A DNA stretch of 64,000 nt from positions 124,001-188,000 of the forward strand of contig JAFLVG010000003.1 of the NCBI GenBank assembly GCA_022508445.1, written 5' to 3'. The notes below the pieces were generated by a model, which was not told where the DNA came from, did not search any database, and was given only the letters and a program-made list of their open reading frames with translations. A program made the translations under genes and the position numbers. This document shows, piece by piece, positions 3,662 to 59,214 of this stretch; position 1 is the stretch's first letter; the number at the start of each line of letters is the position of its first letter. Source of the stretch: Clostridiales bacterium (GTDB taxonomy: Bacteria; Bacillota; Clostridia; Christensenellales; Pumilibacteraceae).

Positions 3662-3773
3662 AAACCCGAACTATACGACGGCTCCCTACGCGAGTGCTAA
3701 CTCAACAGGTTCAAAGGGACCGTGCAGTACTATGCAACATCTCAGCGGACTTTTCTCGTCCGCGCCCCTGCAT
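3662..3773 (-). promoter_or_regulatory. TPP (THI-box) riboswitch
   Basis: The minus strand shows the conserved THI-box blocks in order: AGGGGC, GCTGAGA, CCCTTTGAACCTG, GTTAGCAC and GCGTAGGGA. It senses thiamine pyrophosphate and here controls thiT through the terminator directly downstream. Confidence 0.96.
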
Positions 3774-3784
3774 CTTATAACCAT

Positions 3785-21900: not shown

Positions 21901-21919
21901 ACAATTACAATTTAAAGTC

Positions 21920-22064
21920 TTTCTTTGGGGCGGGGTGCAAATCCCCACCGGCAGTAAAGTCTGCGAAGGTCGCGAAGAGCGCGAAATTACGGCACAAAGC
22001 TCTCGCCTCCCCGAACGGGTGAAATTCCCGTACCGACGGTTAAAGTCCGGATGTTAAAAGAAAT
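21920..22064 (+). promoter_or_regulatory. FMN (RFN-element) riboswitch
   Basis: The conserved RFN blocks are in order: GGGGCGGGGTGCAAATCCCC, ACCGGCAGTAAAGTCTGCGA, then CGGGTGAAATTCCCG and ACCGACGGTTAAAGTCCGGA. It binds flavin mononucleotide and represses riboflavin uptake when flavin is plentiful. Confidence 0.97.
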
Positions 22065-22081
22065 GCGTCTATCGTTATTTT

Positions 22082-45893: not shown

Positions 45894-47153
45894 ATGAATC
45901 CATTTAACGAAAAGGCATGCAAAATCGAAAAATGCGTAGGCGATTGGCGCAAGCTTTACCCCACGGCATACGACAAAAACAGTGCCGACGCCTATACCAA
46001 AGTGCGCACGATTTTGCTCAACGGTGCGGAGTTCGAGGAAGCCTGGTTTATGCATCAGCTCGCTCGACATACGGCAGACAACAACCTGCGACGCGACGTC
46101 GCGTTTTTACGCAAGCTCGAACAACAACAGCAAAAGCGCATCTCTTTCTTTAAACCCAAAGACGAGACCATGCTCGAAACGACCATTTCTTATGAGCAGC
46201 TTGCCGTCGACCTTACCGCGACGCTTGCGCAAACAGAAAAGAACAAATACGTCAAAGCCGCACTCGACTTCGCTTTGCTCGAAGACTTCGATCACCTTTA
46301 CCGTTTCAGCGATCTTTTGGAAATGGAACAGGGTATCAGCGGTGAGCGTTTGGTCGGAAGCTACACCGAAATCATGCCCGGGCGCCCGACCATTGCAGAA
46401 CACCGCCACCCGTTTGACGACGTCAGGCGTTGCATCACGCCCGACGCGCCTGTTTCCACAAAGCTTCACACCATGATCATCACCGCCGCCGAACAGCAAA
46501 CTATGAACTTCTATATGAATCTCGGCACCTTCTATCCGACGTCCGACCTCGGCAGAAAGCTGTTCCTCGAAATCGGCATGGTGGAGGAGCAACACGTCAC
46601 GCAGTACGAATCGCTCATGGATCCCACAACCACTTGGCTCGAATGCCTTTTGATGCACGAATATTGCGAATGCTACCTTTACTATTCCGCGATGAGCGAA
46701 GAAACGGACGAAATCGCCAAAAAGATTTGGACGGCGCACTTCGAGCAAGAGCTTTCGCACCTGCACTATGCCGCAGAGCTTCTCAAAAAATACGAGGGCA
46801 AGGAGTGGGCGCAAGTCATTCCCAACGCCGAGTTCCCCACACTTTTGACATTCAACAATAATTGCGAAAGGAACAAGCACTATATTCGCAACATCTTGAA
46901 GAACACCGTCGGCAACACCTCGGTACTCGAAGAGTATACCGACCTAAGCAACGTCCCCGACGATTACGAGTACTTCAAATACAATAATGCCGTCAACAAA
47001 ACCCCTTCGGCGGTCGCAAGCCACAAGGTCATAGATAATTATATCAACGAGTTCGGCGAGGATTACCGCTTTACCGTAGCAGAACACCCCGTAAAATCGC
47101 TTCGCAATAGAAAAGAGGATAACATCGACGTAGGGCGCAAAAAGAACAGCTAA
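45894..47153 (+). CDS. Ferritin-like-domain protein, function unknown
   Basis: A soluble, mostly helical protein of 419 residues. Two E-x(n)-E-x2-H patterns, seen in EIGMVEEQHVTQYES and HFEQELSHLHYAAEL together with EQQTMNFYM and MHEYCECYLYY, match a ferritin/rubrerythrin-like four-helix diiron site in the second half. The first half (about 1-170) is helical with no family I can name. The ATG at 45894 has a perfect GGAGG site and a TATAAT box at 45869-45874, so the longer frame from 45864 is not used. Iron-dependent oxidase, peroxidase or storage roles are possible but unproven. Confidence 0.72.
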   Translation: MNPFNEKACKIEKCVGDWRKLYPTAYDKNSADAYTKVRTILLNGAEFEEAWFMHQLARHTADNNLRRDVAFLRKLEQQQQKRISFFKPKDETMLETTISYEQLAVDLTATLAQTEKNKYVKAALDFALLEDFDHLYRFSDLLEMEQGISGERLVGSYTEIMPGRPTIAEHRHPFDDVRRCITPDAPVSTKLHTMIITAAEQQTMNFYMNLGTFYPTSDLGRKLFLEIGMVEEQHVTQYESLMDPTTTWLECLLMHEYCECYLYYSAMSEETDEIAKKIWTAHFEQELSHLHYAAELLKKYEGKEWAQVIPNAEFPTLLTFNNNCERNKHYIRNILKNTVGNTSVLEEYTDLSNVPDDYEYFKYNNAVNKTPSAVASHKVIDNYINEFGEDYRFTVAEHPVKSLRNRKEDNIDVGRKKNS

Positions 47154-47195: not shown

Positions 47196-47211
47196 TGTTT
47201 CACGTGGAACA
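47196..47211. promoter_or_regulatory. parS site 1
   Basis: TGTTTCACGTGGAACA matches the ParB/Spo0J target TGTTNCACGTGAAACA at all but one position. Confidence 0.92.
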
Positions 47212-47234
47212 ATTGGCTTGCTTATTTATCGGAT

Positions 47235-47250
47235 TGTTTCACGTGAAACA
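47235..47250. promoter_or_regulatory. parS site 2 (perfect palindrome)
   Basis: TGTTTCACGTGAAACA is an exact 16-bp palindromic parS. It lies 39 bp after the start of site 1. Confidence 0.96.
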
Positions 47251-47270
47251 TATTTTGGCTACTTCGAATT

Positions 47271-47286
47271 TGTTTCACGTGGAACA
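47271..47286. promoter_or_regulatory. parS site 3
   Basis: TGTTTCACGTGGAACA, identical to site 1 and 36 bp after the start of site 2. It ends one base before the parB stop codon. Confidence 0.92.
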
Positions 47287-47287
47287 A

Positions 47288-48166
47288 TTAGCTGTGGTAG
47301 TTTTGCTCTAAATACGACAACATGCTCTCTAAACGGCTCAAATCGTCGGGCGTATAGTAATCTATAAATATGCGCCCCTTGTTGTCGTTTCCGAGCAAAG
47401 ACACTTTGGTGCCGAAAGTTCTCTGCATACGCACTATCATGTCTTTGAGTTCGAGGCTTTGCTTGACGGGCTCTGCCTTCTTTTTAGGGTTAATGGTATT
47501 CTTGACGAGCTTTTCAAACTCGCGGACGCTCAATTTATCGTCGCGACCTTTTTCGGCGAGCTCCCATTGAAGGGCGGGATCGGACACGACCACGAGGCAT
47601 CGCGCATGGCCGGCGGACAGTTTGCCGTCTTCTACTAACTTTTGCACGGGTTCGCTCAATTCGATAAGGCGCAAAAGGTTGGCGACCGTGGGGCGGGCCT
47701 TGCCGATGCGCTCCGCGGCCTCTTCCTGCGTATAGCCGTAGTCGTCCATGAGTTTTTTGATTGCTCGCGCGACTTCCATCGGATTGAGGTCTTCACGCTG
47801 AATATTTTCGATAAGAGACAGCTCGTCAATCTGCACAGGTGTGCATTCGCGAACGCAGACGGGGACAGATACAAGACCTGCCGCTGTGGCCGCGCGATAT
47901 CGACGTTCGCCGGCAATTATCATATATCTGCCATCGTCTTTGGGCGTAACAATCAGCGGTGTGATGACGCCGTGCTTTTTAATGCTTTCGATGAGGGCGG
48001 CAAGCGCGTCGTCATCGAACTTTTTACGCGGCTGATCTAAATTCGGATCGATATTTGACAAGAGCATTTCGGAGGTGTCGGTAGAACTGATTACAGATTC
48101 TTCCTCGATATCGCTGAGTAGCGCGCCAAGACCTCTTCCCAAACCGCCTTTTCTGATTGGTGACAT
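47288..48166 (-). CDS. parB: ParB/Spo0J chromosome-partitioning protein
   Basis: CTP-dependent DNA clamp that loads at parS, spreads and recruits SMC. The N-terminal Soj-contacting segment is GLGRGLGALLSD. The ParB/CTPase block shows GERRYRAA and ENIQREDLNPMEVA. A helix-turn-helix (YTQEEAAERIGKARPTVANL, about residues 140-165) reads parS. The C-terminal dimer domain ends the 292 residues. Three parS sites lie directly downstream. Its usual partner parA is not adjacent. Confidence 0.97.
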   Translation of the reverse strand: MSPIRKGGLGRGLGALLSDIEEESVISSTDTSEMLLSNIDPNLDQPRKKFDDDALAALIESIKKHGVITPLIVTPKDDGRYMIIAGERRYRAATAAGLVSVPVCVRECTPVQIDELSLIENIQREDLNPMEVARAIKKLMDDYGYTQEEAAERIGKARPTVANLLRLIELSEPVQKLVEDGKLSAGHARCLVVVSDPALQWELAEKGRDDKLSVREFEKLVKNTINPKKKAEPVKQSLELKDMIVRMQRTFGTKVSLLGNDNKGRIFIDYYTPDDLSRLESMLSYLEQNYHS

Positions 48167-50657: not shown

Positions 50658-51515
50658 ATGGCAATGAAAGTGAAAATCACGACAGACAGCGCTTCCGATT
50701 TGAACGAATTATTCAACAGTCGTGAAATCGGCGCGTTTCCGCTGTACGTAATGCTCGGCGATAAGCAGTTTTCCGACAGCGTCGATTTGGAATCGAGCAA
50801 AATATTCGAATTTTATAACCAAACAGGAAAACTCCCGACAACGGCGGCTCGTTCTATCGAGGACTTTTACGAATATTTTAAAAGTTTCACGGACGACGGG
50901 TTTGCGGTAATTCATATTGCGATTTCGTCTTGCATTTCTTCCACATTCGAATATGCGCACACCGCCGCCGAGCGGCTTGAAAAAGTATACGTTGTAGACG
51001 GGCGATCTCTTTCTTCGGGTACGGGGCTGCTTGCTCTTGCCGCGGCGGATCTTCGCGACAGCGGAATGGACGCGCCGCAAATCGTGAAAATAATAGAAGA
51101 ACGCAAAAAATACGTGCAGGCGTCGTTCATGATAAACACCCTCGATTTCCTATATAAAGGCGGCAGATGCAGTGGACTTTCCGCGTTTTTCGGCAAGGCT
51201 TTCTCGATAAAGCCGACATTACAGCTCATCGACGGCAAAATAACCGTTGTGCGCAAGTTTTTGGGGAATTTCAATAAAAACATCATTAAGTACGTAGATT
51301 ATACTCTCGAAAAATACAACACTCCCGACATGACGCGCGTATTTATCACTCACACATACGCGGATAAGTCAGCAGTCGAAGCCGTCCGCAATCGTCTGAT
51401 TGATTTTGGCTTTTCGCCCGACAATATTATCGAAACAATCGCCGGATCGACAATAACAAGCCACTGCGGAAAGAGTACTCTCGGCATTCTTTACATAAAC
51501 GACGGAAATAAATAA
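50658..51515 (+). CDS. DegV-family fatty-acid-binding protein
   Basis: DegV/FakB-like protein, which holds an acyl chain for kinase FakA in many Gram-positive bacteria. The N-terminal KITTDSASDL, the TTAARSIEDF motif at the ligand pocket and the C-terminal ITSHCGKSTLGILY segment are all seen. The start codon at 50658 is preferred (GGTGAG site 5 bp before) over a GTG 9 bp upstream. It overlaps rsmG by 1 bp (TAATG). Confidence 0.92.
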   Translation: MAMKVKITTDSASDLNELFNSREIGAFPLYVMLGDKQFSDSVDLESSKIFEFYNQTGKLPTTAARSIEDFYEYFKSFTDDGFAVIHIAISSCISSTFEYAHTAAERLEKVYVVDGRSLSSGTGLLALAAADLRDSGMDAPQIVKIIEERKKYVQASFMINTLDFLYKGGRCSGLSAFFGKAFSIKPTLQLIDGKITVVRKFLGNFNKNIIKYVDYTLEKYNTPDMTRVFITHTYADKSAVEAVRNRLIDFGFSPDNIIETIAGSTITSHCGKSTLGILYINDGNK

Positions 51516-52171
51516 TGGAAAATTTACAGCCAAACTCGCTTAAACAATCGCTTGGTCGGAAAATATTTCGCAATTTTCTTGAAGCAAACGGCTTCGACCG
51601 TTCGGTACAAGATAAATTCGATACTCTAACCGAGCTGTACATGCGCGTTAACAATGTGATAAACATTTCCGCACTCCGTACTTTTGACGATATTTATATA
51701 AAACACTATCTTGACAGCATCTACCCATACAAATATTTCGACGGGAGTTGCTGTGACGTCGGTTGCGGCGGCGGCTTTCCGTGTCTTCCACTCTCGATTG
51801 TCACCGACTTACCATTTACCGGCATTGACGGAGTAGGAAAAAAACTCATTCTTATAAAAAACTGCAAGCAAGAACTTGCTCTGAATAACATTGAGTGCGA
51901 GCACATCCGCGCGGAGGAGCTTTCAAAACGCGGTAAAAAATTCGATACGGTTTGCTCGCGCGCGCTCGCTTGCACCGACAAAGCATTGGCGTTCTGCGCT
52001 CCGCTTGCCGAAAAGAACGGGAAAATAATTTTATACAAAACACAAAACGACGAGCCGGCAAGCATTACAGTTGCAAATAGATATAACGTAAAACTTATCG
52101 AAACTGTGGATTATACTTTACCAGAAACAAACATAAACCGAAGGTTATTCATCTACTCGAAGTTGTTGTAG
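51515..52171 (+). CDS. rsmG: 16S rRNA (guanine-527-N7)-methyltransferase
   Basis: SAM-dependent methyltransferase of the GidB family. The SAM-binding motif CCDVGCGGGFPCLPLSI is at residues 80-96, and CEHIRAEEL and SRALACTDKALAF follow in the expected order. 218 residues. Often linked to mnmE and the par genes near the origin, as here. Confidence 0.95.
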   Translation: MENLQPNSLKQSLGRKIFRNFLEANGFDRSVQDKFDTLTELYMRVNNVINISALRTFDDIYIKHYLDSIYPYKYFDGSCCDVGCGGGFPCLPLSIVTDLPFTGIDGVGKKLILIKNCKQELALNNIECEHIRAEELSKRGKKFDTVCSRALACTDKALAFCAPLAEKNGKIILYKTQNDEPASITVANRYNVKLIETVDYTLPETNINRRLFIYSKLL

Positions 52172-52453
52172 TGTTATATATTATATATTTGATAAAGGAT
52201 AGGATAATAATGTCTGTTCAAATGTGTACAACAAAAATAATACACAACATTAGGTGTTTTAGGAGAAAACAGTATACTATTTGATTGAATAATTATGAAA
52301 CAAAACATGTACACAACCGACCGAGAAGTGAACGAACGGATGTTTATAAAGATAAAGTTGTGAACTTGCATATTTTGCTCATTCGAGAAAGAGCGAAAAA
52401 GAAAAAATAATTTAAACGAAAAAAACCGGTTATACACACAAAGTAGAAAAATT
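52172..52453. other. Candidate replication origin (AT-rich gap with DnaA-box-like 9-mers)
   Basis: The 282-bp gap is strongly AT-rich and has no gene. It contains 9-mers close to the DnaA box TTATNCACA: TTATACACA exact (52429-52437), TAATACACA one mismatch (52237-52245), TTGTACACA on the minus strand one mismatch (52222-52230) and ATGTACACA two mismatches (52306-52314). G-over-C bias is near zero or negative before it and clearly positive in mnmE after it. Weak promoter-like sequence for mnmE may also lie here. Confidence 0.5.
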
Positions 52454-53794
52454 ATGAACAATATAAACAGAAATGCGGATATTATAGTCGCGCTCGCAAC
52501 GCCGTACGGAAAGTCGGCGGTTGCAATAATAAGAGTTAGCGGCAACGGTTGCGAAGAACTTGTAAACAAGTTTCTTGCGCGGCGTCTTTCCGTCGGAAAA
52601 ATAAAGGTTAACAATTTCAGAACGGAAAAATTTACGGAAAATTTAATGGCCGTGCTGTATAAATCGCCTCATTCGTATACAGGCGAGGACGTTGTTGAAC
52701 TTTTTCCGCACGGTAACATGACAATTTGCGACGGAATAATCAAGACCTTGGTGGAATCGGGAGCGAGAATTGCCGAGCGCGGAGAGTTTACAAAGCGAGC
52801 GTTTTTGAACGGAAAAGTTGATTTGATGCAGAGCGAGGCGCTTGCGGACATAATAGACGCACAAACGGCGGAGCAGCTCGATTACGGCAACAAGAGATTT
52901 GACGGAGGGTTTAAATCTCTCGAAAATGTGGAAAAATTACTACTCGCCGCACTCAGCTCGATAGAGGCGGTGTTGCATTACAGCGACGAACTTGAAGAAA
53001 ACGAGATTGACGACGTGCTCTTAAACGACGTGAACGGCGCAATCGAAAGCTCCATGAGCGAGATAAAAAAGGAAATCGACGGGTTTGTCGGTGGCAAAAT
53101 ACTAAAAGACGGGTTTAAGATTGCGCTAATCGGCGCGCCGAACGTGGGAAAATCCACTCTTTTAAATGCTTTGTTAGGCAATGAACGTGCAATCGTGACA
53201 CCGATTGCCGGAACGACGCGCGACACGGTGGACGGGGATTTTATTTATAATGACAGGAAGTTCACGGTTACCGACACTGCGGGATTGAACGAAAAAACGT
53301 CGGACGTTGTGGAAAAGATAGGGATTGACCGCGCAATCAAAGCGGCAAGCGAGGCGAACGTTGTCGTTTGTGTGACCGAATTCGGTAAAAAAGAGAAAAT
53401 CTCGCTGCCAGAAGATATAGAAAACGCTATCTTTATCGAGAACAAGTGTGACAGTGTCTTTGATGTGGGGACTGATTACGAAAAGGCAAAAAAAGACGGA
53501 AAACTTCAAATCAGCGCAAAGAACGGAATTAACATAACGGCGTTGAAGCAATTACTGTACGATTTGTGTCCCAAAGACCACGGAGCGATTTGCAATCACA
53601 GACAATATGACTGTGCCGTTCGGTGCTTTGACAGTTTGGTTGCCGCAAAGGTCGAGAGCAAAAGGGCAGAAGGCTTTGAAATCGTCGCGGCGCTACTGTA
53701 CGAAGCGTATTCGGCAATTACCGATTTGCACGGCGAAGCGGCCGACGAAAAGGTAATATCCGCCGTATTCGAACGCTTCTGTGTGGGTAAATAA
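52454..53794 (+). CDS. mnmE: tRNA modification GTPase MnmE
   Basis: Works with MnmG to make 5-carboxymethylaminomethyluridine at the tRNA wobble position. The N-terminal formyl-tetrahydrofolate-binding domain starts [22 protein letters not shown]. The GTPase insert has P-loop [12 protein letters not shown], switch motif TTRDTVD and DTAGLNE. The C-terminal Cys motif FCVGK (consensus FCIGK) ends the protein. 446 residues. mnmG is not in the window. Confidence 0.97.
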
Positions 53795-54805: not shown

Positions 54806-54880
54806 AAAGAAATCGTATACCCTACCGTTTAACTAAACCGGCGGTTTAGCAAATCAAGATTTTTTAACATGAGAATAAAA
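54806..54880 (-). repeat. Dispersed hairpin repeat, copy 3 (inverted)
   Basis: The reverse complement matches copy 1 from TTTTATTCTC through the palindrome (54832-54849, with one central change) to GGTAGGGTATACGA. It lies just before the methyltransferase gene promoter. Confidence 0.85.
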
Positions 54881-54911
54881 CTCATATGCGGTCGCGAGCA
54901 GTCCAAAAGGA

Positions 54912-54940
54912 TTGATAAACAAGAGAAATTGTGTTATAAT
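54912..54940 (+). promoter_or_regulatory. Promoter of the double methyltransferase, predicted leaderless
   Basis: TTGATA (54912-54917), 17-bp spacer, TATAAT (54935-54940). The expected start point, about 7 bp downstream, coincides with the ATG at 54947. Confidence 0.7.
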
Positions 54941-54946
54941 GCACTT

Positions 54947-56788
54947 ATGCGGTATATCGGGAACAAAACGGCTGTACTCAATGAAATAGACAAGTTGATT
55001 GACGAAAGCGGACTCAACAAAGAGGGGCTTTCGTTTTTTGACGCGTTCACGGGAACGGCGTCGGTCGCACAGCACTATAAAGACAGATATAGAATAATCG
55101 CAAACGACAATCTGTATTTTTCTTATGTAATTGCCGAAGCACGATTAAACGCGCCGACTGCGATGTTCGATAAACTCGGCTTCGATCCGTTTGAATATTT
55201 TAACGAGGCGGACGCTTCAAGCCATGCCGGATTTGTTGCCGAAAACTTCGCGCCCGAATTATCGGAGAGAATGTATTTCAGCCACGAGAACGCACAGCTT
55301 ATCGATTACATAAGATCGACGGTCGACGAGTGGTTTGCACAAAATAAGATAACCGAAAACGAAAGATTCTACTTGATAGCTTCGCTGTTGGAATCGGTTT
55401 CAAAAGTGGCAAACGTCGCAGGAGTATACGGGGCTTACCTGAAAACTTGGGATCCTCGCGCAATTAAAAAAATGAAGTTCATTCCGATTGACGACAATCC
55501 ATACGTTGTGCGACCTGCCGACGTCTATAATGACGACGTGTTGGAAGTAATAGAGAAAACGCACGGCGACATCTTGTATTTGGATCCGCCGTACACCAAA
55601 AATCAATATTCCGTTCAGTATCACCTATTGGAAACGATTGCGCGTTACGATAATCCAAAGCTAAACGGCAAAACGGGCGCACGCGATATGGGCAAGTTCT
55701 CTTCGATGTTTTCAAAGTCGGGATATGCCGAAGTCGCGTTCGAACAGCTTATCGCTAATGCAAAATACAAATACATAATTTTGAGTTACAGCTCGGACGG
55801 CATCATGTCCAAGGAATATATCGAAAGTGTACTCAAAAGATACGGCAAGAAAGAAACATTTAAATTCAAGAAATTCGGATACAAACGGTACAACAACAGA
55901 AAAAGCACCAACGACGAAAATCATCTCGAATATCTGTTCTTTATCGAAAAGAAAGAGGATGTCGTTTACTCGTCGCCGCTTAATTTTATAGGCGGAAAAG
56001 GCGATTTGGTGCCGTTCTTAAAAGCGCACATGCCCGAAAATATAAATACGTTTTACGATCTTTTTGCCGGCGGCTTCAATGTGGGAATAAACGTAACTGC
56101 GAATAAAATCGTATATAACGACATCAATTACAAGGTCAAAGAGCTACTGCAATTCATTGCAAACACGGACATTGCCGAATTTTATAAATATGTGGAAAAA
56201 ACAATAAAGGCGCTCGGGCTTAGCAAGGAAAACAAGGACGCGTATATAAATTTACGAAATAAGTACAATCGAAAAAATAAAGAAGATCGGGACTGCCGCG
56301 ATTTGTTTTTGCTGATAATGTTCGGCTTTCAGCAACAAATAAGATTCAACGGAAATTTGGACTACAACAATCCTGTCGGTCAAGCCGGCTTTAACGATAA
56401 GGTTTTGGAAAAGCTGATTTCGTTTTCAAGAGCCGCAAAGAGCAAAAACGTTGAATTTTATGCGGAGGATTATGAGAGCTTTTTCGACAGCGTTACCCCA
56501 GATGATTTTGTGTACATCGATCCGCCGTACCTGATAACGCTCGGCAGCTACAACGACGGTAAACGCGGCTTCAACGGTTGGTCGAAGAACGAAGAAATCC
56601 GCATGCTGGCTTTCTTAAAAGACTTGGACAAAAAGAACGTCAAGTTCATGCTTTCAAACGTATTGACGCACAAAAATAAGAAAAACGAAATTTTGCAAGC
56701 CTGGATTCAAGAAAACGATTTTAACGTGATTGCATACGACGGAAAAGCGCGTGGAAGTCGCGCGGAAGTAATTATTACAAATTATTAA
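54947..56788 (+). CDS. Fused double D12-class DNA adenine methyltransferase (M.FokI-like)
   Basis: Two complete Dam-type (D12) N6-adenine methyltransferase domains are joined in one chain of 613 residues. Domain 1 starts MRYIGNKTAVLNEID with motif I FDAFTGTASV and catalytic DPPY at 213-216. Domain 2 (from about residue 345) has NFIGGKGDLVPFL, motif I YDLFAGGFN and DPPY at 525-528. This architecture is known from M.FokI, where each half methylates one strand of an asymmetric site. The 5'-extended frame from 54869 is rejected because a promoter places the start at 54947. No endonuclease or specificity gene flanks it, so it looks like an orphan modification enzyme. The recognition site cannot be read from the sequence. 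Confidence 0.9.
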   Translation: MRYIGNKTAVLNEIDKLIDESGLNKEGLSFFDAFTGTASVAQHYKDRYRIIANDNLYFSYVIAEARLNAPTAMFDKLGFDPFEYFNEADASSHAGFVAENFAPELSERMYFSHENAQLIDYIRSTVDEWFAQNKITENERFYLIASLLESVSKVANVAGVYGAYLKTWDPRAIKKMKFIPIDDNPYVVRPADVYNDDVLEVIEKTHGDILYLDPPYTKNQYSVQYHLLETIARYDNPKLNGKTGARDMGKFSSMFSKSGYAEVAFEQLIANAKYKYIILSYSSDGIMSKEYIESVLKRYGKKETFKFKKFGYKRYNNRKSTNDENHLEYLFFIEKKEDVVYSSPLNFIGGKGDLVPFLKAHMPENINTFYDLFAGGFNVGINVTANKIVYNDINYKVKELLQFIANTDIAEFYKYVEKTIKALGLSKENKDAYINLRNKYNRKNKEDRDCRDLFLLIMFGFQQQIRFNGNLDYNNPVGQAGFNDKVLEKLISFSRAAKSKNVEFYAEDYESFFDSVTPDDFVYIDPPYLITLGSYNDGKRGFNGWSKNEEIRMLAFLKDLDKKNVKFMLSNVLTHKNKKNEILQAWIQENDFNVIAYDGKARGSRAEVIITNY

Positions 56789-56893: not shown

Positions 56894-57787
56894 TCACGCT
56901 TGTGTTTTTATTCTTGCATTTTGAGCTTTTATCATAAAATTGTTTGCAAGTGATTTATCGCAAAGGCGGGAGAAAATCGCTTCGCCGTAGCGTTCGAGCA
57001 TTGTTTCGGGTTTGAGGTTTGTCGTAACGATAGTATTCTTTTTGCGCAACCAACGCTCGTTTATCACTGTATATAGATATTCACGCGTAATATTTTTGAG
57101 CATTGTTTCGGTGCCGAGATCGTCGATGACGAGCAAATTGCAGTCGAGCATGGGCGTAAATAAATCAACGTAATCTTCGACGGCAAACTGCGTGTGATAT
57201 TCCTTTGCGCGTTTTACGAAATCGAACGCGCTGACTGTCACGGTCGCCGCGCCGCGTTTCATCATTTCGGTAGCCATTGCCGAAGCGAGCATTGTTTTGC
57301 CCGTACCCGACGAACCGACAATTATAAAGAACGGTTTATCGCCATTCGGGAATTTTTCTATGTACTGCTTCGCTTCCGTATAAACTTTGGATATTGCTTT
57401 GGGCGCGGTTTTTTGCGCTTCATTGAAATCGATGAGCGGAAGAACGAGGTTTTCGCTTTCCGAATTTATCACGCGCTTAATTACGCAACGGCAATATTTC
57501 CCGTTAACGTACCCGGTATCGTTGCACTCCTTACAGCGGCAGGGCGGTTCGAGTACGTTTTTGTCGAGCTTTAAGCGCTCGATCTCCGCTTTGAGCTTTT
57601 GCCGCGCGGACTCGATGTCGTTTTCTAACTTTTGCGCTTTTTTAATCGCTTCCGTTTGATACGCCGAATAAGCCGTTTTTAGCTCGGCATGCTCGCGTAA
57701 AGCGTTTTGCCACACTTCATATCCGCTGTCGAGGTTGGCGCGCCTCTCGTCTACGATTTCTTTAACCGCGCGTTGATATGCGTTCAT
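56894..57787 (-). CDS. DnaI/DnaC-like replicative helicase loader
   Basis: AAA+ ATPase with Walker A GSSGTGKT, Walker B LLVIDDLGTE and a sensor region (NTIVTTNLKPETM), of the type that loads the DNA helicase at origins or restart sites. The N-terminal half has a helical segment and a Cys cluster (CRCKECNDTGYVNGKYCRC, about residues 83-103), a zinc-binding site as in Bacillus DnaI. 297 residues. The start codon overlaps the DnaD-like gene's stop by 1 bp (TGATG), so the two are coupled. Confidence 0.9.
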   Translation of the reverse strand: MNAYQRAVKEIVDERRANLDSGYEVWQNALREHAELKTAYSAYQTEAIKKAQKLENDIESARQKLKAEIERLKLDKNVLEPPCRCKECNDTGYVNGKYCRCVIKRVINSESENLVLPLIDFNEAQKTAPKAISKVYTEAKQYIEKFPNGDKPFFIIVGSSGTGKTMLASAMATEMMKRGAATVTVSAFDFVKRAKEYHTQFAVEDYVDLFTPMLDCNLLVIDDLGTETMLKNITREYLYTVINERWLRKKNTIVTTNLKPETMLERYGEAIFSRLCDKSLANNFMIKAQNARIKTQA

Positions 57788-59214
57788 CAGTCATCCTCCG
57801 AAACTTGCGTAAACAGCGAGTTAAGCTCTTCCGCCGAGCGGTTTTCCACCACTATACCCGTCGGCGCAGCAGGATTGACGTCTGCCTGTGCCGTAACGCT
57901 CGGGACGGCGGCCTTTGCATTTTCGATATCGGTAATGCCTTTTTCTTTCCAGGAAAGAAGGATTGCGTTCATGTACGCGTAAGGGTTTGTCTTGCCCACG
58001 GCGAGCGTTGCGGCGTAATCGATAATTTCTTTCGAAAAAGCGAGCTTTTCCGCCCAGTCCGCATAGTGCGTGCGCTGTGTGTCCTTGACCGCGCCCTTTA
58101 TATTGAACAGCTTGTTCAGTTCTTTTATTTCGCCGTCGAATTTGTTTTCGCTGTCGATATTTTCTTTTACTTGTTTTTCGCTCGTAAGGTTTCGTTCCGA
58201 TAGGTCGCGAACAACGGCGTCGAGGTCGGAAAGGCGTTTCATATCCTTTTTCATGCAGTACTCGGCGGCGGCGAGGATTGCTCTTTGCTCGAAGCCGAGG
58301 CCAAGCCACGGCTTGATGTACATCGCAATTTCCGGATCGACGTTTTCGTAATAAACGCCGAGCGCTTTATTTACCGATTTTGCGAATTTGTAAAGATCTT
58401 TGCGGTCGGCCTCGTATTTTTCTATGATATCGACGGTAAAAAAGGCGAGCGAATGGTACTGCGAAAGCTTTTCGTCGAGCGTCGCTATTCCGCCGTGCTT
58501 GATATTTTTTGCGACGTGCAAAATAATGTCGAAATCGAATTTATATTCGTGCCGCCATTTTTTGTATAGCTGTACCGCCTCGTGATCGGGGTGCTTTTTG
58601 CCCATAGCGCCGAGTACGGCACAAAGATCGTTATAATAAACGCCGAATTCTTCTAGTCTTTCGCCGACCTCGTCGGCTGAACGGTATCCGTCCTGCGCGA
58701 GATTGCGCGCAACCGCGAGAATATACGGACACGAAACGTTTCCGCCCTTTAAATCGGCGCAGTATTTAATAATAAAAACCATTGCCTGCCATTCTACGTG
58801 CAGTTTTTCCATCAACGAGTAATACTCGTTGTATTCGTTTGACGAAATTTGGCGTTCGGTTATGTAGAGCTGTGCGTTGCGGTTGAATTCCCGATATTCG
58901 TCCACATTGATATTTTTTATTTTCGGCCTTGCCGTGCGCGGCGACAAATAGCAGATATCGTCGCCGAGCTTCGACATGAGTCCGAGTTCCGACCAATAAT
59001 CGACAGCCGCCTCGACGGTAACGGGATCGAGGTTGAGCCGCCTTGCGAGCATATTTACGCTGTCGTCCTTGTCGTCTTTTCTCGCGGCGAGCGAAAGCCC
59101 GTAAAGATAGACCTTTACGTAATCGCCGTCGGCATACGGCATGTATTCGACAATAAATTTATTTTCGACGGTAACAGCGCCGTCGAAACTCGCTTCCGGC
59201 GACAGTTTGAACAT
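57787..59214 (-). CDS. DnaD/DnaB-like primosome protein
   Basis: Helical protein of 475 residues with DnaD-domain features: an N-terminal winged-helix part (about 1-130) and at least two C-terminal DnaD-type repeats, of which YADWAEKLAFSKEIIDYA and NPYAYMNAILLSWKEKGI near residues 385-435 are the clearest. In Bacillus such proteins remodel DNA for helicase loading, matching the helicase-loader gene directly downstream. The individual Bacillus equivalent (DnaB or DnaD) cannot be decided. Confidence 0.82.
   Translation of the reverse strand: MFKLSPEASFDGAVTVENKFIVEYMPYADGDYVKVYLYGLSLAARKDDKDDSVNMLARRLNLDPVTVEAAVDYWSELGLMSKLGDDICYLSPRTARPKIKNINVDEYREFNRNAQLYITERQISSNEYNEYYSLMEKLHVEWQAMVFIIKYCADLKGGNVSCPYILAVARNLAQDGYRSADEVGERLEEFGVYYNDLCAVLGAMGKKHPDHEAVQLYKKWRHEYKFDFDIILHVAKNIKHGGIATLDEKLSQYHSLAFFTVDIIEKYEADRKDLYKFAKSVNKALGVYYENVDPEIAMYIKPWLGLGFEQRAILAAAEYCMKKDMKRLSDLDAVVRDLSERNLTSEKQVKENIDSENKFDGEIKELNKLFNIKGAVKDTQRTHYADWAEKLAFSKEIIDYAATLAVGKTNPYAYMNAILLSWKEKGITDIENAKAAVPSVTAQADVNPAAPTGIVVENRSAEELNSLFTQVSEDD

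Follow-up and report, generated by a model that had tools for sequence, protein, structure and literature searches.

The rsmG-mnmE intergenic gap as a probable chromosomal replication origin unlinked from dnaA

The gap between rsmG and mnmE is, with a probability of roughly 0.92, the chromosomal origin of replication (oriC) of the bacterium analysed here, a compact origin contained in a single gap and unlinked from dnaA. The window, by which we mean the whole 64-kb stretch of DNA that was analysed, lies on contig C23 (190,730 bp). An excess of DnaA boxes in the gap, its conservation, a nearby switch in GC skew, adjacent parS sites and the displacement of dnaA and dnaN, all read from the sequence, led us to an origin uncoupled from dnaA. 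A preliminary description of this DNA had named the gap as a possible oriC, and the same features support that proposal, together with a DnaA-trio-like motif and the lack of an origin signal at dnaA. The anatomy of the gap is ordinary for an oriC; its location is unusual for Bacillota. The gap and its elements, in window coordinates, are as follows.

51515..52171, plus strand: rsmG (TIGR00138, PF02527)
52172..52453: oriC candidate, the rsmG-mnmE intergenic gap (AT content, box excess, top box window, conservation in congeners)
52173..52222: candidate DNA unwinding element, AT-rich and of low stability (nearest-neighbour energy)
52205..52210, minus strand: DnaA-trio-like hexamer YTAYTA, 12 nt 3' of box A (offset kept in 14/19 genomes)
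52213..52221, minus strand: possible weak second DnaA box beside box A (column 64; three mismatches here, at most two in 7/19)
52223..52231, minus strand: conserved DnaA box A, TTGTACACA (column 74; 17/19 with at most two mismatches, 14/19 with at most one)
52238..52246, plus strand: DnaA box-like, TAATACACA, one mismatch, outside the conserved columns
52341..52349, minus strand: conserved DnaA box B, TTATAAACA (column 213; 18/19 with at most two mismatches, 15/19 with at most one)
52430..52438, plus strand: conserved DnaA box C, TTATACACA, exact to TTATNCACA (column 321; 19/19 with at most two mismatches, 10/19 with at most one)
52452..52460, plus strand: DnaA box-like, TTATGAACA, a match to TTATNCACA over the mnmE start codon
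52454..53794, plus strand: mnmE (TIGR00450, PF12631)

The gap is 282 bp long, has an AT content of 72.3% compared with 50.3% in the window and lacks GATC sites. It contains one exact match to TTATNCACA (52430, plus strand) and three matches with one mismatch (52223, minus; 52238, plus; 52341, minus), a recount that agrees with the AT-rich gap and the one exact and three near-exact boxes previously described. A fifth match overlaps the start of mnmE and may be coding sequence only. The four boxes with at most one mismatch compare with a mean of 0.67 in dinucleotide shuffles, none of 500 of which reached four. The box cluster above chance that characterizes a bacterial oriC is thus present, both here and over the gaps of 19 congeners taken together (81 boxes versus 14.0 in shuffles, maximum 25 in 500). 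Among all 340-bp windows of C23 the gap ranks best with a weighted score of 6 and five boxes, followed by C23:127337 with a score of 5 and three boxes.

The arrangement is conserved in the genus. Our sample of the family comprised 74 genomes, 20 of them in the genus of the window, and 19 of these 20 contained the mnmE locus. The gap is present in all 19; in 18 of them it measures 277–308 bp, and in the remaining one, whose tabulated 342-bp entry includes about 27 bp of mnmE, about 315 bp. Boxes occupy three fixed columns in 19, 18 and 17 of the 19 gaps at up to two mismatches (permuted columns: mean 5.9, maximum 11/19 in 200 permutations), although the 19 gaps are not 19 independent trials because the species are related. 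We further compared eight long stretches, six from this genus including C23 and two from another genus; those of G001, G006, G007, G011, G019 and G049 are parts of contigs. The order signal peptidase, (degV), rsmG, gap, mnmE and smpB is kept in all seven related stretches, degV being missed in two. In all eight, no window outranks the gap for boxes; in G019 a second place ties on score but has fewer boxes.

The best surviving alternative, albeit an unlikely one, is that the gap serves only as a DnaA-regulated promoter or DnaA-titration site for mnmE and that the true origin lies elsewhere in the origin region or in the genome. In its favour, other gaps also hold box clusters, one of which (C2:19252-19315) is as dense or denser, and G102, a one-contig member of the order from another family, has a box cluster upstream of mnmE besides one at dnaA. 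However, a strand switch occurs at or near the gap in seven of the eight long stretches, parS sites lie beside it, and in each stretch it ranks first for boxes, with no other window on C23 or on the dnaA contig C5 equalling its score.

The cluster at C2:19252-19315 (locus L326) contains five boxes, two of them exact, within 64 bp, and its weighted count exceeds that of the gap. It lies within an 82-bp spacer whose two flanking genes are on one strand, and the skew is negative in 8/8 bins over C2:10001-30000. Since the skew does not change over these 20 kb and the intergenic gap is short and flanked by genes of one strand, we rejected this site as an origin; it is possibly a DnaA-regulated promoter or a titration site. 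The gene downstream of it is presumably cell-wall amidase-like. Exact DnaA boxes number 52 in the whole genome versus 36 for the reversed pattern. Scans for clusters of inexact boxes in this genome covered C23, C5 and single loci elsewhere, including 3-kb loci on C1.

An oriC is further expected to hold an AT-rich, easily melted element beside its boxes. By computed stability the segment 52173-52222, next to box A, ranks fourth from the bottom among the 50-bp segments of C23, and only 0.02% of the 50-bp windows are as unstable. In the basal unwinding system boxes are followed within 16 bp by DnaA-trios. The hexamer YTAYTA is found at an offset of 12 nt from box A in 14 of the 19 congener gaps (shuffle mean 1.16, maximum 6 in 2000), in a fixed-offset test that was picked after viewing the alignment, guided by the Clostridioides difficile trio printed in the accessible part of PMC7561715. 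This offset falls within the peak of 10–13 bp given for the box-to-trio spacer in the excerpted text of PMC8287927. Runs of NTN triplets, the published trio rule, show no excess over shuffles in the congener gaps (3.00 versus 3.03). Three gaps of another genus all carry CTACTT at offset 12, and two of them carry CTACTACTA at offset 21.

The flanks of the gap contain segregation and replication genes.

47196..47286: three parS sites at 47196, 47235 and 47271, the only parS found in the genome at up to two mismatches
47288..48166, minus strand: parB (PF17762, PF02195, TIGR00180)
56894..57787, minus strand: DnaC/DnaI-like helicase loader ATPase (PF01695; under the curated DnaC and DnaI cut-offs)
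57787..59214, minus strand: DnaD-domain protein (PF07261, TIGR01446)

Both the family matches and the parS positions bear out the earlier statement that parB and three parS sites lie about 5 kb from the gap. The presence of parB and parS close to the origin is what defines a ParABS origin domain. In the genus of the window parS (TGTTYCACGTGRAACA) occurs in 17 of 20 genomes, in each of the 17 at 4.3–6.0 kb upstream of mnmE. In other genera, among the genomes listed with both parS and mnmE, parS is on the mnmE contig 1.2–34 kb upstream in five and on a different contig in ten. The DnaD-type and DnaC/DnaI-type genes lie 4–7 kb to the right of the gap, the loader gene at 4.4 kb; in G001 both are sited elsewhere, as is the loader gene in G019. 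From the DnaD-domain protein, the helicase loader and the gene order we take the genome to belong to a Clostridia-like lineage.

These elements could act together as follows. DnaA supplied from a distant locus would bind the conserved boxes A, B and C, spread from box A along the trio-like strand beside it and melt the AT-rich DNA at the left of the gap (52173-52222). A loading step of the DnaD and DnaC/DnaI type may then precede the start of two forks, and ParB on the parS sites 5 kb away would handle the new origins. DnaA binding, melting, helicase loading, bidirectional forks and ParB action are all inferred here from Bacillus and E. coli models.

A switch in strand composition, as expected at an oriC, is seen near the gap, offset by 5 kb in this genome. 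The cumulative GC skew of C23 reaches its minimum at window position 47103, about 5 kb to the left of the gap. Up to 170 kb, 29 of the 34 five-kb bins have a negative skew and five a weakly positive one. The skew is positive in the three full bins past 175 kb and negative in the terminal 730 bp; on this contig the arm to the right of the gap is only 14 kb long. Raw skew in this genome largely tracks gene direction, and we therefore turned to fourfold-degenerate sites. For plus-strand genes the skew at these sites changes from -0.147 left to +0.124 right of the gap, and intergenic skew changes from -0.038 to +0.083 (the right side comprising 999 bp only). Minus-strand genes show no change of sign (+0.075 left, +0.115 right, on the contig strand), so that the flip is only partial in this genome. 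The preliminary description had placed a flip near 52 kb, regardless of gene direction. Its six hand counts of G and C were all exact on recount, and the flip holds for plus-strand genes and intergenic DNA; for minus-strand genes it does not, and the minimum is at 47103.

The flip is clean in G050, a member of another genus of the family, in which the skew minimum of contig G050:C14 lies 0.2 kb from a ten-box cluster in the rsmG-mnmE gap. Its intergenic skew changes from -0.141 left to +0.240 right of the gap, and fourfold sites on the contig strand give -0.133 (plus genes) and -0.179 (minus genes) left of it and +0.160 right of it, where only plus genes are found. In the congener G001 the corresponding values are -0.117 and -0.115 on the left; on the right they are +0.140 for minus genes, -0.005 for plus genes and +0.002 for intergenic DNA. 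Overall, the minimum is found within 5.1 kb of the gap in seven of the eight long stretches and at 18 kb in G049.

The offset of the minimum bears on a further alternative, which puts the origin at about 47.1 kb, in the parS cluster or in parB, rather than at the gap. The cumulative minimum at 47103 would fit this placement, as would G006, G007 and G011, whose minima lie 4–5 kb off the gap. We regard it as very unlikely, given that C23 has its best box window in the gap and that the minima of G001, G019 and G050 lie within 0–0.2 kb of the gap.

The genome encodes DnaA, as an oriC of this type demands, from a single dnaA (C5:5053-6402), and its single dnaN is on contig C8. The classical Bacillota layout, with boxes flanking dnaA and dnaN next door, is thus absent. 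On C5 (50.7 kb) ten of eleven skew bins are negative and one is +0.001, with no flip, and no window on this contig holds more than two boxes. The outcomes named beforehand as speaking against an origin in the gap, a skew minimum elsewhere or a dense box cluster at dnaA, were looked for on C23 and C5 and not found. The weakest alternative is an origin that has remained beside dnaA, like that of other Bacillota, with a recent inversion or change in gene orientation behind the skew change at the gap. It could draw on the raw skew that follows gene strand and on the rnpA-rpmH-dnaA-dnaN context, which the available text of PMC7561715 states to be conserved in Firmicutes, but it is largely refuted by C5, by the flip at intergenic and fourfold sites and by G050, where dnaA is on the same contig as the gap, 171 kb away, and 17/17 ten-kb bins are negative from the dnaA end to 170 kb with the sign turning at the gap.

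The displacement extends over the family. In none of the 67 genomes (of 74) with entries for both genes does dnaN directly follow dnaA. The two genes are on different contigs in 63 of the 67, a figure in which draft assembly could hide some nearness. They share a contig in four: in three they are 73–199 kb apart, and in the fourth (G026) they are 2.9 kb apart on opposite strands, dnaN being cut by the contig edge. Elsewhere in the order 235 genomes were sampled, and both genes appear among the matches listed, up to a score limit, for 92 of them; 59 of these show the classical arrangement, six a near but non-classical one and 27 a split. Splits occur in several families of the order (e.g. in 11/14 genomes of family f4, among the matches listed), which suggests that the linkage of dnaA and dnaN was lost repeatedly in the order.

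G102 retains the classical arrangement and carries parB, rsmG, mnmE, dnaA and dnaN within about 15 kb. It also served as a check of the method: among 16 sampled 12-kb stretches, the skew is negative in eight (100 to 1180 kb), -0.008 at 1300 kb and positive in seven (1400 to 2350 kb), the sampled values being negative on one side of the dnaA/box cluster and positive on the other. Its box clusters upstream of dnaA and of mnmE (loci L306/L307) are at G102:C1:1249582 and 1253532, and the mnmE-upstream cluster could be a precursor of the oriC proposed for the window's family. Most simply, the origin would have kept its old place and dnaA and dnaN would have moved away. We lean slightly towards a broader scenario, in which dnaA left the origin several times in this order and oriC in the window's family remained in the ancestral parB-rsmG-mnmE neighbourhood, working from a single gap with no dnaA beside it; the usual coupling of firing to dnaA gene dosage and autoregulation would then have to have been replaced.

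Outside the genus of the window the picture is more varied. Seven of 19 mnmE stretches from other genera (G032, G033, G050, G057, G058, G065, G067) have a window of at least six boxes 0.1–1.4 kb upstream of mnmE, and G022 (seven boxes) and G024 (four boxes) have one about 6.9 kb upstream; for the remaining ten no window of more than three boxes is listed, and some of these contigs end near mnmE. Around dnaA, 17 of 21 stretches of relatives run from one skew extreme to the other. An interior skew turn 1–7 kb from dnaA is seen in the other four (the congeners G006 and G019, as well as G031 and G032), with no window of more than three boxes. Clusters are located about at the dnaA start in G063 (six boxes) and G072 (four boxes) and some kilobases upstream of dnaA in G034 (three boxes) and G065 (eight boxes). 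Since box clusters and skew turns differ in this way among genera, the position of oriC may vary within the family.

We compared the gap with characterized origins, as described in the accessible portions of the papers cited. Bacillus subtilis and C. difficile have a bipartite oriC at rnpA-rpmH-dnaA-dnaN (PMC7561715), with which the gap shares DnaA boxes, an AT-rich melting region and a possible CTACTA-type trio beside a box; in contrast, neither dnaA nor dnaN is nearby, and a single 282-bp gap, instead of two gaps flanking dnaA, holds all the boxes. The basal unwinding system of box, box, spacer and DnaA-trios (PMC8287927) may be mirrored by box A, its weak neighbour, the 12-nt offset and YTAYTA, and by CTACTACTA 21 nt from the box in two of the three gaps of the other genus, but the trio run in the window's genus is short and degenerate. 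Like the gammaproteobacterial oriC by gidA/mnmG (PMC6323995, PMC4285127), the gap neighbours a tRNA-modification gene outside the dnaA-dnaN context; here, however, the neighbour is mnmE, GATC is absent and the lineage is, by inference, Clostridia-like. Cyanobacterial oriC lies near dnaN, and that of Synechococcus lividus far from both dnaA and dnaN (PMC6323995); uncoupling from dnaA is common to both cases, and phylum, box sequence and neighbours differ. An oriC outside the dnaA context is therefore known from Gammaproteobacteria and cyanobacteria, and dnaA is not always beside the origin (PMC6323995, PMC4285127, PMC9584773). A Clostridia endosymbiont without dnaA (PMC10579323) is a separate case. 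In the literature searched, mostly titles and opening lines of abstracts with few subscription papers, no report was found of an oriC adjoining mnmE or of one separated from dnaA in Bacillota. As dnaA serves as a stand-in for the origin (e.g. in the available text of PMC9584773), this proxy would misplace the origin in the window's family, by 171 kb in G050. The family also provides a natural experiment on whether control of initiation in Bacillota requires dnaA to adjoin oriC, because other families of the same order retain the classical arrangement.

Several further elements were noted in the genome. At 54869-56788, 2.4 kb from the gap, the window encodes a 639-aa protein in which two stretches match D12 adenine DNA methyltransferase. 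We rejected it as an origin regulator, as it has no match at 1e-8 in the seven related stretches (five congener, two other-genus) and the gap is devoid of GATC. The 4.7-kb contig C16 carries at positions 10-194 (locus L327) about eight 23-bp tandem repeats, which can also be read as 46-bp pairs, with cores TTATGTACA/TTATGCACA; the array holds seven box-like units and looks like plasmid iterons. Elsewhere in the window, a TPP riboswitch just over the cut-off is found at 3665-3779 on the minus strand and an FMN riboswitch at 21917-22066 on the plus strand.
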